The notes under the pieces: generated by a model
Told to the model about the DNA's origin: nothing
The model's input: only the letters and a program-made list of their open reading frames with translations
Databases searched by the model: none
Made by a program: the position numbers and the translations under genes
In this document: piece by piece, positions 24,929 to 30,336 of the stretch
Layout of the letters: each line of letters begins with the position of its first letter
Numbering within the stretch: the first letter of the stretch is position 1
NCBI RefSeq assembly: GCF_034008315.1
Contig: NZ_CP125377.1
Location: 5,582,501 to 5,646,500, forward strand
DNA: 64,000 nt
Reading direction: 5' to 3'
Origin: Pseudomonas sp. P8_241
GTDB lineage: Bacteria > Pseudomonadota > Gammaproteobacteria > Pseudomonadales > Pseudomonadaceae

Positions 24929-24952
24929 TATACCAAAAAACAATATTGTACA
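24929..24952. promoter_or_regulatory. LitR/PplR-type box upstream of the renalase-like gene
   Basis: TATACC-N12-TGTACA is one mismatch from the P. putida light-regulator consensus T(G/A)TACA-N12-TGTA(C/T)A. The right half overlaps a plausible -35 (TTGTAC, 24946-24951) spaced 17 bp from TAGTCT at 24969-24974, so a bound repressor would block the promoter. Confidence 0.65.
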
Positions 24953-24999
24953 GGTTCAAACCCCGGCGTAGTCTGTACAGAAAGGTAAACGAGGCCCCT

Positions 25000-25986
25000 A
25001 TGACTGTACCTATCGCAATCATCGGCACCGGCATCGCCGGACTCTCCGCCGCCCAGGCCCTGACGGACCTCGGGTACGTGGTTCACCTGTTCGATAAAAG
25101 TCGCGGCAGTGGCGGGCGCATGTCGAGCAAGCGCAGCGATGCGGGCGCCCTGGACATGGGCGCGCAATACTTCACGGCCCGCGATCGCCGTTTTGTCACG
25201 GAAGTTCAACGCTGGCAGACCAACGGCTGGGTGGCTGAATGGACACCGCAGCTTTACACCTTCCACGGCGGCCAACTCAATTTGTCGCCGGATGAACAAA
25301 CGCGCTGGGTCGGTACGCCACGCATGAGCGCGATCACCCGCGCACTGCTCGGCGACCTTGAAGTGCATTTCGCCTGCCGGATCACCGAGGTCTATCGCGG
25401 TGAGGAGCACTGGCATCTGCAGGACGCCGAAGGCTTCACCCACGGCCCGTTCAGCCACGTCGTCATCGCCACGCCGGCCCCGCAGGCTACTGCGCTGCTG
25501 GCCTCGGCACCGAAACTCGCTGGTGCCGCCGCCGGGGTGAAAATGGACCCGACCTGGGCCATCGCCCTGGCTTTTGAAACACCGCTGGAAACGCCTATGG
25601 AAGGCTGCTTCGTACAAGACAGCCCACTCGACTGGCTGGCCCGCAACCGCAGCAAACCCGGACGCGACAACACCCTCGACACCTGGGTCTTGCACGCCAC
25701 CAGTGCCTGGAGCCGACAACACATCGACTTGTCCAAGGAGGCGGTGATCGAACAGTTGCACGGCGCATTCGCCGAACTGCTGCACGATTCCATGCCGGCG
25801 CCGAGCTTCAGCCTCGCGCATCGCTGGCTCTACGCCCGCCCTGCCAGCAGTCACGAATGGGGCACATTGGCAGACGCCGATCTGGGGCTGTATGCCTGTG
25901 GCGACTGGTGCCTGTCCGGACGAGTCGAAGGTGCCTGGCTCAGTGGTCAGGAAGCCGCTCGCCGTTTGCACGAACATTTGCAGTAA
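25000..25986 (+). CDS. Renalase-like FAD-dependent oxidoreductase
   Basis: 328 residues from the ATG at 25000, with GAGG 6 bp upstream. The opening [17 protein letters not shown] is a dinucleotide-binding fold, followed by [12 protein letters not shown] and [15 protein letters not shown], as in bacterial renalase from plant-associated Pseudomonas. That enzyme re-oxidises the wrong isomers of dihydro-NAD(P) (known of the family). It is upstream of the YbgA-MerR-phr operon, and its promoter carries a box of the same type. Assignment to renalase rather than another amine-oxidase-like family is by recalled similarity. Confidence 0.82.
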
Positions 25987-26010
25987 GCAGGGGCATTAAA
26001 CCGAAAAACT

Positions 26011-26034
26011 TATACACAAAACTTGACGTGTACA
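26011..26034. promoter_or_regulatory. LitR/PplR-type box 1 upstream of ybgA-merR-phr
   Basis: TATACA-N12-TGTACA is an exact match to the light-regulator consensus. TTGACG (26024-26029) lies within it as a -35 element with TAAGAT at 26046-26051 as -10 (16 bp spacing), so the box overlaps the promoter. Confidence 0.75.
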
Positions 26035-28007: not shown

Positions 28008-28028
28008 ATGAATCGCACGGACTTGAAA

Positions 28029-29486
28029 ATGCAATTGATCTGGCTGCGCAGCGACATGCGCGTGCATGACAACACCGCACTCGCGGCCGCCGCTGCTCGC
28101 GGTCCGAGTGTGGCAGTGTTTCTGCTGAGTCCGCAGCAATGGCTGGACCATGACGATGCGTCCTGCAAAGTGGATTTCTGGCTGCGCAACCTGGTCGAGT
28201 TGAGCCACGCACTGGATCAGTTGAATATTCCCCTGATGATCCGCAGGGCACCGTATTGGGAGGATGCGCCAGCAGTATTGCTCGACCTGTGTCGGCAGTT
28301 GCAGATCGGCGCGCTGCACCTCAACGACGAATACGGTATCCATGAAACCGCTCGAGATGCCGCAGTCACCAGAACCCTAGAGGCCGAAGGTATTGAGGTA
28401 CACCGCTACCTCGATCAATTGCTGTTCCAGCCCGGCAGCGTCCTGACCAAAACCGGCAACTTCTTTCAGGTCTTCAGTCAGTTCCGCAAAGTCTGTTATG
28501 AACGACTGCATCATTCGCTGCCCGGCCTGGTGCGCGCACCCAAGGCGCAAGCACCGCTGGACATCGACAGCGATGCGCTCCCCTCCATTATTGAAGGGTT
28601 CCCGGCGCCCAATGCCAGCCTGCGCGACCTCTGGCCCGCCGGCGAGACCGAAGCTCACCGTCGCCTCGCCAGTTTTACCGATGCGCAGATCGATCATTAC
28701 AAAGACGAACGGGACTTCCCGGCGAAACCCGGTACCAGCCAACTTTCGCCCTACCTCGGCGCAGGCGTGATTTCTCCCCGCCAATGCTTGCACGCGGCAC
28801 TACAAAGCAATCAGGGAGAGTTTGAGAGCGGAAGTTCCGGTGCCGTGACCTGGATCAATGAACTGCTATGGCGCGAGTTCTATAAACACATTCTGGTGGG
28901 GTATCCACGGGTTTCCCGGCATCGGGCGTTTCGCCCCGAAACCGAGGCTCTGGCGTGGCGCGACGCCCCCAGTGACCTCGCCGCCTGGCAAGAGGCACGT
29001 ACCGGCCTGCCAATTATTGACGCAGCCATGCGCCAACTCCTTGAAACCGGCTGGATGCACAACCGTCTGCGCATGGTGGTGGCAATGTTCCTGACCAAAA
29101 ACCTGTTGATCGACTGGCGTGAAGGCGAGCGCTTTTTCATGCGCCACCTGATCGATGGCGACCTGGCCGCGAACAACGGTGGATGGCAGTGGAGTTCGTC
29201 CACCGGCACCGATTCGGCGCCCTACTTCCGGATTTTCAACCCGCTGAGCCAATCGGAAAAATTCGATCCGCAGGGAGTGTTCATCAAGTACTGGCTGCCA
29301 GAGTTGGCTGATCTGAGTAATAAAGAAGTGCACAACCCTGCCAACGTGGGGGGGTTGTTCGGTGTGGTCGATTACCCTTCGCCAATTGTCGATTTGGGCA
29401 CTTCCCGCACCCGCGCCCTGAGCGCTTTCAAAAACCTGCCGTCACGACAACCTGTCGGCGAGCCAAATGAGAGCGCCATTAACTGA
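28029..29486 (+). CDS. phrB: Deoxyribodipyrimidine photolyase
   Basis: 485 residues from the ATG at 28029, chosen because it aligns with the usual opening MxLxWLRxDxR; an ATG at 28008 directly abutting the MerR stop would add seven residues. The N-terminal antenna domain is followed by the FAD domain with WINELLWREFYKHIL, GWMHNRLRMVVAMFLTKNL and DLAANNGGWQWSSSTGTD, where Trp residues of the electron path are present. It splits cyclobutane pyrimidine dimers using blue light. It is last in the coupled ybgA-merR-phr unit. Confidence 0.95.
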   Translation: MQLIWLRSDMRVHDNTALAAAAARGPSVAVFLLSPQQWLDHDDASCKVDFWLRNLVELSHALDQLNIPLMIRRAPYWEDAPAVLLDLCRQLQIGALHLNDEYGIHETARDAAVTRTLEAEGIEVHRYLDQLLFQPGSVLTKTGNFFQVFSQFRKVCYERLHHSLPGLVRAPKAQAPLDIDSDALPSIIEGFPAPNASLRDLWPAGETEAHRRLASFTDAQIDHYKDERDFPAKPGTSQLSPYLGAGVISPRQCLHAALQSNQGEFESGSSGAVTWINELLWREFYKHILVGYPRVSRHRAFRPETEALAWRDAPSDLAAWQEARTGLPIIDAAMRQLLETGWMHNRLRMVVAMFLTKNLLIDWREGERFFMRHLIDGDLAANNGGWQWSSSTGTDSAPYFRIFNPLSQSEKFDPQGVFIKYWLPELADLSNKEVHNPANVGGLFGVVDYPSPIVDLGTSRTRALSAFKNLPSRQPVGEPNESAIN

Positions 29487-29559
29487 TTTCACGCGGTAAT
29501 CCGAAGATGGATAAAAGACAACCGGGCTGGGCCGATACCTGGCCGAATGGGAGATTAGG

Positions 29560-30336
29560 ATGAGCCGTACACCTCCACGACGATATTGGCTGACGGGCGC
29601 CAGCAGCGGAATTGGCGCCGCGCTGGCTGAAGAAATATTGAAAACCGGAGCACACCTGGCCGTCAGTTCACGGTCTGCGGTATCCCTGAAAGTCATATCG
29701 CAACGATATCCGGGACAAGTGCTGGCGCTACCCGGAGACCTGACCAACAGTCAAACCGTGCGCGAGATTGGCGAACAGATTGCCGAGTACTGGGGCTCGC
29801 TGGACACGGTCATCCTCAATGCCGGAACCTGCGAATACGTGGATGCCAGACAGTTCGATGCGTCGATCGTCGAGCATGTGGTGCGTACCAACCTGCTTGC
29901 CAGTACCTATTGCGCTGAAGCGTCCTTGCCGCTTTTACGTGCCGGTACCGCGCCACATCTAGTGGCCATGGCCAGCGCCGTGACTTACCTGCCATTGCCC
30001 CGAGCCGAAGCGAACGGCAACTCGAAGGCCGGTTTGCGTTACTTGTTCGAATCCCTGCGCATTGACCTCGCGCCCGAAGGCATCGAAGTCACGGTAATCA
30101 GCCCGGGCTTTGTCGAAACGCCCCTGACGAGTAAGAATGATTTCTCCATGCCTCTGAGTTGGCCAGTGGAAAAAGCCGCGCGGCACATTTTCGAACAACT
30201 CAAGGATCGTCCGCTGGAAATCAATTTCCCTGCGGCATTCATGGCTGCGCTCTGGCCATTGTCCAGGTTGCCTGACCAGGTGAAACTGGAGATCGGCAAG
30301 CGAATGGTGCGCAGTAACCCGCCGATCAAGGATTGA
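29560..30336 (+). CDS. SDR-family protein with catalytic Tyr replaced by Asn
   Basis: 258 residues. TGASSGIG is the cofactor motif (12-19), ILNAG is at 85-89, and the catalytic Ser lies in MASAV near 139. The usual YxxxK reads NGNSK, so Asn152 takes the place of Tyr while Lys156 is kept. The codon is AAC, one base from TAC. A PGF-V-TPLT segment follows. In P. putida an SDR gene follows the light-induced phr locus. Here it lies 74 bp after phr and may be in the same unit. Standard SDR catalysis is doubtful. Confidence 0.87.
   Translation: MSRTPPRRYWLTGASSGIGAALAEEILKTGAHLAVSSRSAVSLKVISQRYPGQVLALPGDLTNSQTVREIGEQIAEYWGSLDTVILNAGTCEYVDARQFDASIVEHVVRTNLLASTYCAEASLPLLRAGTAPHLVAMASAVTYLPLPRAEANGNSKAGLRYLFESLRIDLAPEGIEVTVISPGFVETPLTSKNDFSMPLSWPVEKAARHIFEQLKDRPLEINFPAAFMAALWPLSRLPDQVKLEIGKRMVRSNPPIKD

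Follow-up and report, generated by a model that had tools for sequence, protein, structure and literature searches.

We describe an island of Pseudomonas sp. P8_241 which, judged from its sequence, is very probably a blue-light regulon of the LOV-LitR type with two promoters, one in front of rudS-litR-phr (and perhaps a following SDR gene) and the other in front of a gene for renalase. It lies in a stretch of 64,000 nucleotides (hereafter the window), C1:5582501-5646500 of the one-contig 6.39 Mb genome. The initial annotation of the window had proposed a light regulon of the LitR/PplR type, a proposal that is supported by the operators, the arrangement of the promoter, the class of the regulator and the presence of a LOV gene elsewhere in the genome. 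We document below the operators, their conservation, their correlated absence with the LOV gene and the linkage of renalase to photolyase genes in other lineages. The island is made up as follows.

24929..24952, + strand: predicted LitR/PplR operator before renalase, TATACC-N12-TGTACA, whose 3′ half and the inferred −35 overlap; a box stands here in 60 of 80 relatives
24946..24974, + strand: inferred renalase promoter, TTGTAC (24946-24951)-N17-TAGTCT (24969-24974), read from the sequence and kept in relatives
25000..25986, + strand: renalase, FAD-dependent (phmmer E 2.3e-185 to 4zcc/4zcd/5krq, residues 1-328)
26011..26034, + strand: predicted LitR/PplR operator 1 of the rudS promoter, an exact match that covers the −35
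26023..26050, + strand: sigma-70-like promoter TTGACG-N16-TAAGAT, reported by two promoter scans, with its −35 under the 26011 box
26061..26084, + strand: predicted LitR/PplR operator 2, exact, between the expected transcription start and the rudS ATG, 50 bp past operator 1
26107..27066, + strand: rudS ("ybgA"), a TudS-DUF1722 fusion of the tRNA 4-thiouridine desulfidase type (PF04463 and PF08349)
27066..28007, + strand: class II LitR (PplR1-like) MerR protein with B12-binding_2 only (PF13411, PF02607; no PF02310 at E 1e-3)
28008..29486, + strand: phr, DNA photolyase of the E. coli PhrB type (NF007955, above cut-off)
29560..30336, + strand: SDR oxidoreductase (PF00106; gene order in relative L072)

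When we scanned the window with the consensus T(G/A)TACA-N12-TGTA(C/T)A, the three boxes claimed in the initial annotation stood at the positions and with the mismatch counts given there, one mismatch at 24929-24952 (TATACC...TGTACA) and none at 26011-26034 and 26061-26084. They are the only window sites with 0-1 mismatch; at up to two mismatches the window holds 8 sites against 1.44 expected in shuffles, and 8 was reached in 0 of 100 shuffles. A search of the whole genome for the box, proposed earlier as a check, found the exact consensus at only 2 sites (0 for a reversed-pattern control), both of them inside the 120 bp that separate the end of the renalase gene from the beginning of ybgA, 5′ of ybgA-merR-phr. 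At up to one mismatch the genome has 17 sites against 9 for the reversed control, less than twice chance, so the renalase box has to be argued from conservation and not from rarity.

The rudS promoter has the layout footprinted in the P. mendocina PmlR2/PmSB-LOV system, where (PMC9758184) Site 1 lies on the −35, Site 2 lies between the transcription start and the ATG of the first gene, and both sites read TGTACA-N12-TGTACA. In the window the first site covers the −35 and the second falls between the inferred transcription start and the ATG, and the promoter itself, TTGACG-N16-TAAGAT, compares with TTGACT-N16-TATGAT of P6650 (PMC9758184). Among the 64 loci in which rudS was detectable, the window included, two boxes of 0-1 mismatch were found in 43, one in 16 and none in 5, and the two boxes were 49-53 bp apart in 42 of the 43 two-box promoters. 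Group g15, presumably Stutzerimonas, shows a paired spacer shift: at the rudS promoter, eight of nine g15 loci (L177-L185; the L177 boxes assigned by position) have one N13 and one N11 box instead of two N12 boxes.

The genes rudS and litR overlap by 1 base and phr starts directly after litR, so the three look like one operon. The motifs DxHxxG and W-x9-EH are marks of B12 binding, and neither was found in the window MerR protein, in agreement with its first description as a MerR regulator without a visible B12 motif; the B12-binding_2 helix bundle is present. It shares this bundle and the MerR domain with class I LitR/CarH, and differs from them in carrying no B12-binding domain or motif. A MerR helix-turn-helix with B12-binding_2 and no B12-binding domain is what has been described as class II LitR (PMC9758184), and on this domain evidence the protein is a class II LitR of the PplR type and a predicted binder of T(G/A)TACA-N12-TGTA(C/T)A. 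The photolyase scores 525.9 bits against the NCBIfam PRK10674 cut-off of 506. As for "YbgA", it combines TudS with DUF1722 and has the conserved Cys, Glu, Ser and Arg, and the seven residues named for RudS_KT (PMC11417400) are all present as C15, C47, E49, R58, S109, S111 and C112, with a shift of two positions relative to RudS_KT; with the same domain fusion, residues and operon partners, the predicted protein is better named RudS.

The SDR gene, which had been placed in the regulon with a "perhaps", is a plausible member as a leftover, since it is probably the remnant of a longer light operon seen downstream of phr in relatives. In relative L072 (7780-10225), a SnoaL-like gene lies between phr and the SDR gene, and a 415-amino-acid amine-oxidase-like FAD oxidoreductase follows it; this arrangement matches the P. 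mendocina light operon leading to UfaM, and the window (29487-30336) keeps the SDR gene only. A search of the P8_241 genome for the FAD oxidoreductase, run without a positive control, gave no match.

The genome also contains the short LOV gene whose search had been suggested (C1:1104101, 158 amino acids, motif QDCRFLQ). It lies on the opposite strand one open reading frame (ORF) beyond a second LitR-like gene (C1:1102424, 36% identity), so that P8_241 has its short LOV gene close to a MerR gene of the LitR-like kind. The P. putida KT2440 system of PplR1-PplR3 and PpSB-LOV is alike in its consensus, in its rudS-litR1-phrB operon and in having a LitR-like gene near a short LOV gene. It differs in having two further PplRs and two LOVs, against one further LitR-like gene and one short LOV in P8_241, and in a longer operon part that is missing from P8_241. 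Sumi et al. (2020, J Bacteriol) reportedly counted 19 light-induced genes in KT2440. The rudS-pplR1-phrB operon is already in print (PMC9758184, PMC11417400), and the core of the island, that is the two-box promoter, class II LitR, photolyase and rudS, is a member of this published regulon type. The P. mendocina operon has nine genes, and renalase is not mentioned in the parts of that report consulted (PMC9758184).

The renalase gene is the second branch. Its predicted product shows full-length homology to the characterised P. phaseolicola renalase (PDB 4zcc, 4zcd, 5krq) and by this measure is renalase, an orthologue of the solved enzyme. Renalase was found in 178 of 198 Pseudomonadaceae genomes, and we examined 80 loci, comprising those of the 32 other renalase-bearing genomes of group g1 and 48 hand-picked for spread from the 145 further genomes with renalase. 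In 60 of these loci a box is found in the 320 bp upstream of the gene (56 at N12 with 0-1 mismatch, 4 exact at N11), while 3 have a weaker box and 17 none, and the box is kept in ten genera. These relatives' loci and the window region, 892 kb for the loci, hold 161 sites with 0-1 mismatch, and 153 of them fell within the two promoters in their first definition. By our reading, six of the remaining 8 are rudS-promoter sites outside that definition, one (L133) lies before a merR without rudS and one (L131) downstream of renalase. The initial annotation had placed the renalase-like gene in the light regulon, and phylogenetic footprinting strongly supports that it belongs there.

When we aligned the 49 of 81 loci whose N12 box lies 40-54 nt from renalase, the consensus was TaTACA...TTGTAC, 17 nt, TAGcCT, in which the 3′ half-site is the inferred −35; TTGTAC-N17-TAGTCT is preferred as the renalase promoter solely because it is conserved in relatives. 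A second, named set, the best 80 of 130 relatives (19 Pseudomonadaceae and 61 outside), gave a box at renalase in 15 of the 19; it was not found at the renalase of Pseudomonas sp. G34, A. vinelandii CA, Pseudomonas sp. Gutcm_11s and S. stutzeri TS44. The two sets are not fully independent, at least A. vinelandii being probably in both. TATACC in place of TATACA is shared by the window with 13 loci (L058, L060, L062-L064, L069-L073, L075, L084, L085) and, of the 15 named Pseudomonas boxes, 13 have it too; the half-site is specific to the lineage and is itself conserved.

The box at 24929 also faces a divergent unit, through which the initial annotation would perhaps have extended the regulon to haem synthesis:

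23901..24803, − strand: TIGR01777 family oxidoreductase (yfcH-like) of the divergent unit; its membership of the regulon is not supported
22865..23887, − strand: hemH, ferrochelatase (TIGR00109), divergent neighbour; regulon membership not supported

In all 58 loci that have both a box and TIGR01777, the window included, the distance from the box to the renalase start has a median of 49 (median absolute deviation 2) and lies within 5 nt of it in 48, whereas the distance to the TIGR01777 start has a median of 126 (deviation 7; range 41-334) and lies within 5 nt in 27. The operator is therefore phased to renalase and not to TIGR01777-hemH, and this extension is not supported in this lineage. That the box controls the divergent unit, alone or together with renalase, and that haem synthesis is light regulated, is in our judgement unlikely. 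By our own reasoning a light-time removal of protoporphyrin, a photosensitiser, would make sense, and in g15, where renalase has mostly moved away from the hemH locus, an exact box is retained at 3 of 10 loci (L179, L182, L184), 60-70 nt away from the start of TIGR01777, with renalase no longer next to it. However, L182 retains the old renalase promoter before another ORF, so that relics are likely among the g15 boxes; 6 of the 10 g15 loci have no box of 0-1 mismatch near TIGR01777 (degenerate forms occur in some), and a minus-strand promoter scan gave no better promoter overlapping the 24929 box. At L177, also in g15, a one-mismatch box is kept together with a renalase copy.

The absence of the renalase box is correlated with that of a LOV. 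LOV-like matches were found in 66 of the 80 genomes, but those of three (G014, G102, G091) are weak, lie in ORFs longer than 1000 amino acids and were excluded, so that a short LOV is counted in 63 genomes and lacking in 17; LitR-like genes were found in 79 of 80. In the 57 genomes with a LOV and with hemH in the same stretch, the renalase box is present in 54 and in a weak form in 3, while in the 17 genomes without a LOV it is absent from 11 and kept in 6. The Fisher p for box versus LOV is 3e-9 with kinship ignored, and it overstates the number of independent events, since the 11 genomes lacking both fall in five genera. The LOV-less loci L120-L127 have no renalase box, and 5 of these 8 keep at least one rudS box. 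LitR can thus persist without a LOV, and in these loci it may answer to something else.

The mechanism that we propose is as follows. In the dark, a class II LitR (the window MerR protein and/or its LitR-like paralogue at C1:1102424) would occupy the boxes, at rudS one over the −35 and a second just past the expected transcription start, at renalase a single one over the inferred −35. Blue light would activate the short LOV (C1:1104101), which would remove LitR, and rudS-litR-phr(-SDR) and renalase would then be transcribed together. The photolyase would repair DNA, RudS would strip near-UV-sensitive 4-thiouridine from tRNA, and renalase would return misreduced isomers of NAD(P)H to NAD(P)+ by oxidation. 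In P. mendocina LitR represses and the illuminated short LOV removes it, acting as an anti-repressor as we propose for P8_241 (PMC9758184). In KT2440, PP_0738-PP_0742 rise together in illuminated co-culture (PMC11014904). We infer that the P8_241 renalase would be induced by light.

Beyond the Pseudomonadaceae, a profile search found renalase in 43 of 369 Gammaproteobacteria, and we examined 40 distant loci (our own genome, G015 and G222, the weakest match, were left out, and several loci are shortened by contig ends). In 12 of the 40, from 11 families, renalase has a photolyase-superfamily gene (PF03441, PF04244) no more than 6 kb away, against 0.33 expected from genome-wide gene numbers and rounded genome sizes. 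If the two genomes from the same order are set aside, the linkage is 10 of 38 against 0.31. Both the PF03441 and the PF04244 kind occur, and by tblastn the photolyase-like genes stand on either side and strand of renalase, which suggests repeated association. Within the named set, a photolyase-like gene lies within about 7 kb of renalase in 11 of the 61 loci outside the Pseudomonadaceae (tblastn, for which no background was computed). Metagenome-assembled genomes (MAGs), whose labels may be wrong, contribute loci labelled Sphingomonadales, Hyphomonadaceae, Rhizobiaceae group, Pseudomonadota, Verrucomicrobia and Myxococcota; the others are Sulfopaludibacter (which we take to be an acidobacterium), Phycisphaerae, Oleibacter, Halomonas saccharevitans and Thioalkalivibrio. 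Thioalkalivibrio, at 84-85% to a first-set photolyase, repeats a lineage, and Oleibacter and Halomonas may do so too. In Sphingobium terrigena and Novosphingobium olei a LOV signature was found about 1 kb upstream of renalase.

Several observations count against a LOV-controlled renalase, or against its wider link with light. The window renalase box carries a mismatch (TATACC), common to most of the lineage, and its distance to the renalase start spans 17-196 nt over all 58 loci. Two boxes had been said to overlap plausible −35 elements, which stood for 26011 on the strength of both scans; at 24929 the pair TTGTAC-N17-TAGTCT is a poor sigma-70 match, absent from one scan and outscored by other intergenic pairs. 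Six of the 80 genomes retain the renalase box without a LOV, and six g15 genomes have a LOV with renalase elsewhere and no box. In the paralogue at C1:1102424 only the MerR domain was found, B12-binding_2 being undetected at E 1e-3, so that its place in class II is tentative. PP_0742 appears to be renalase from gene order, and the authors of the co-culture study remark that illumination was the same in both cultures (PMC11014904), so the rise of PP_0738-PP_0742 is not a clean light effect. Photolyase is not near 28 of the 40 and 50 of the 61 distant renalases, and when 11 of the 61 were scanned for the box, none was seen in 10; only Oleibacter had one, with one mismatch, at −162.

Some of these points would also fit a constitutive renalase behind a weak, decayed box, with only rudS-litR-phr under light control, an explanation that we consider quite unlikely. 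Sites with one mismatch, such as this box, are near chance genome-wide and the adjoining promoter pair is weak, but the box is retained in ten genera over the same −35 in the 49-locus consensus, and the TATACC form itself is kept, for instance in P. vancouverensis, P. lurida, P. gessardii and Pseudomonas sp. KUIN-1. It is very improbable that some other regulator uses the sites and that the island serves the response to stress in general, for although PP_0738-PP_0742 rose in co-culture at unchanged illumination (PMC11014904) and rudS boxes outlast the LOV in the 5 loci mentioned, the sites have the exact published PplR/PmlR consensus in the same two-site geometry before the regulator's own operon.

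Control of renalase by LOV and LitR would bear on what the enzyme is for. The isomers 1,2- and 1,6-NAD(P)H, strong inhibitors of some dehydrogenases, are oxidised by renalases and are believed to arise in cells by tautomerisation and nonspecific redox events (PMC7660482). The same paper, on human renalase and bioreactors, states that nonspecific photochemical reduction of NAD(P)+ yields the 1,2- and 1,6-isomers. By orthology, the P8_241 enzyme should oxidise 2- and 6-dihydro-NAD(P), and we suggest tentatively that its substrate in the light is photochemically misreduced NAD(P)H, a step that would carry these isomers from photochemistry to the repair of photodamage in cells. It is conceivable, though we would not press it, that bacterial renalases in many lineages are photoprotection enzymes which repair the cofactor pool as photolyase repairs DNA. 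Light-excited flavins or porphyrins would misreduce NAD(P)+ to the inhibitory 2- and 6-dihydro isomers; renalase would be LOV-LitR-induced in the Pseudomonadaceae, while in Alpha- and Gammaproteobacteria and on contigs labelled as of Acidobacteria, Planctomycetes, Myxococcota and Verrucomicrobia type its gene lies in clusters with those of photolyases, photolyase-related proteins or LOV sensors. The switch before renalase, conserved as it is in many relatives, suggests that the enzyme is part of a bacterial sun-protection kit. Renalase has had a clear chemistry and no clear occasion; a light operator, often missing where the photoreceptor is missing, and clustering with photolyases would name light as that occasion, and a single light response of bacteria would then include the repair of cofactors besides the protection of DNA and tRNA. 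A literature search of partial coverage found no report of renalase together with photolyase, or with blue light in bacteria, nor did any renalase title listed, for Pseudomonas or more widely, concern bacterial light, and within that coverage the renalase branch, its conservation and the wider photolyase linkage appear to be unreported.

Some minor observations may be added. The genome's remaining 14 one-mismatch sites were candidates for further regulon members; we inspected 13 of them (L003-L015, leaving out C1:6311778) and rejected these: 12 lie inside ORFs of at least 100 amino acids, which are mechanical ORFs and not proof of genes, and the sole site outside one, L005, looks like chance. 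A phage origin of 24700-26200 was looked for, with no match. In a MAG labelled Klebsiella pneumoniae (L214), a label that may be wrong, we found a renalase-like gene 38% identical to the query, and on a Myxococcota MAG contig (L212) homologues of merR, renalase, phr and rudS are clustered in that order.

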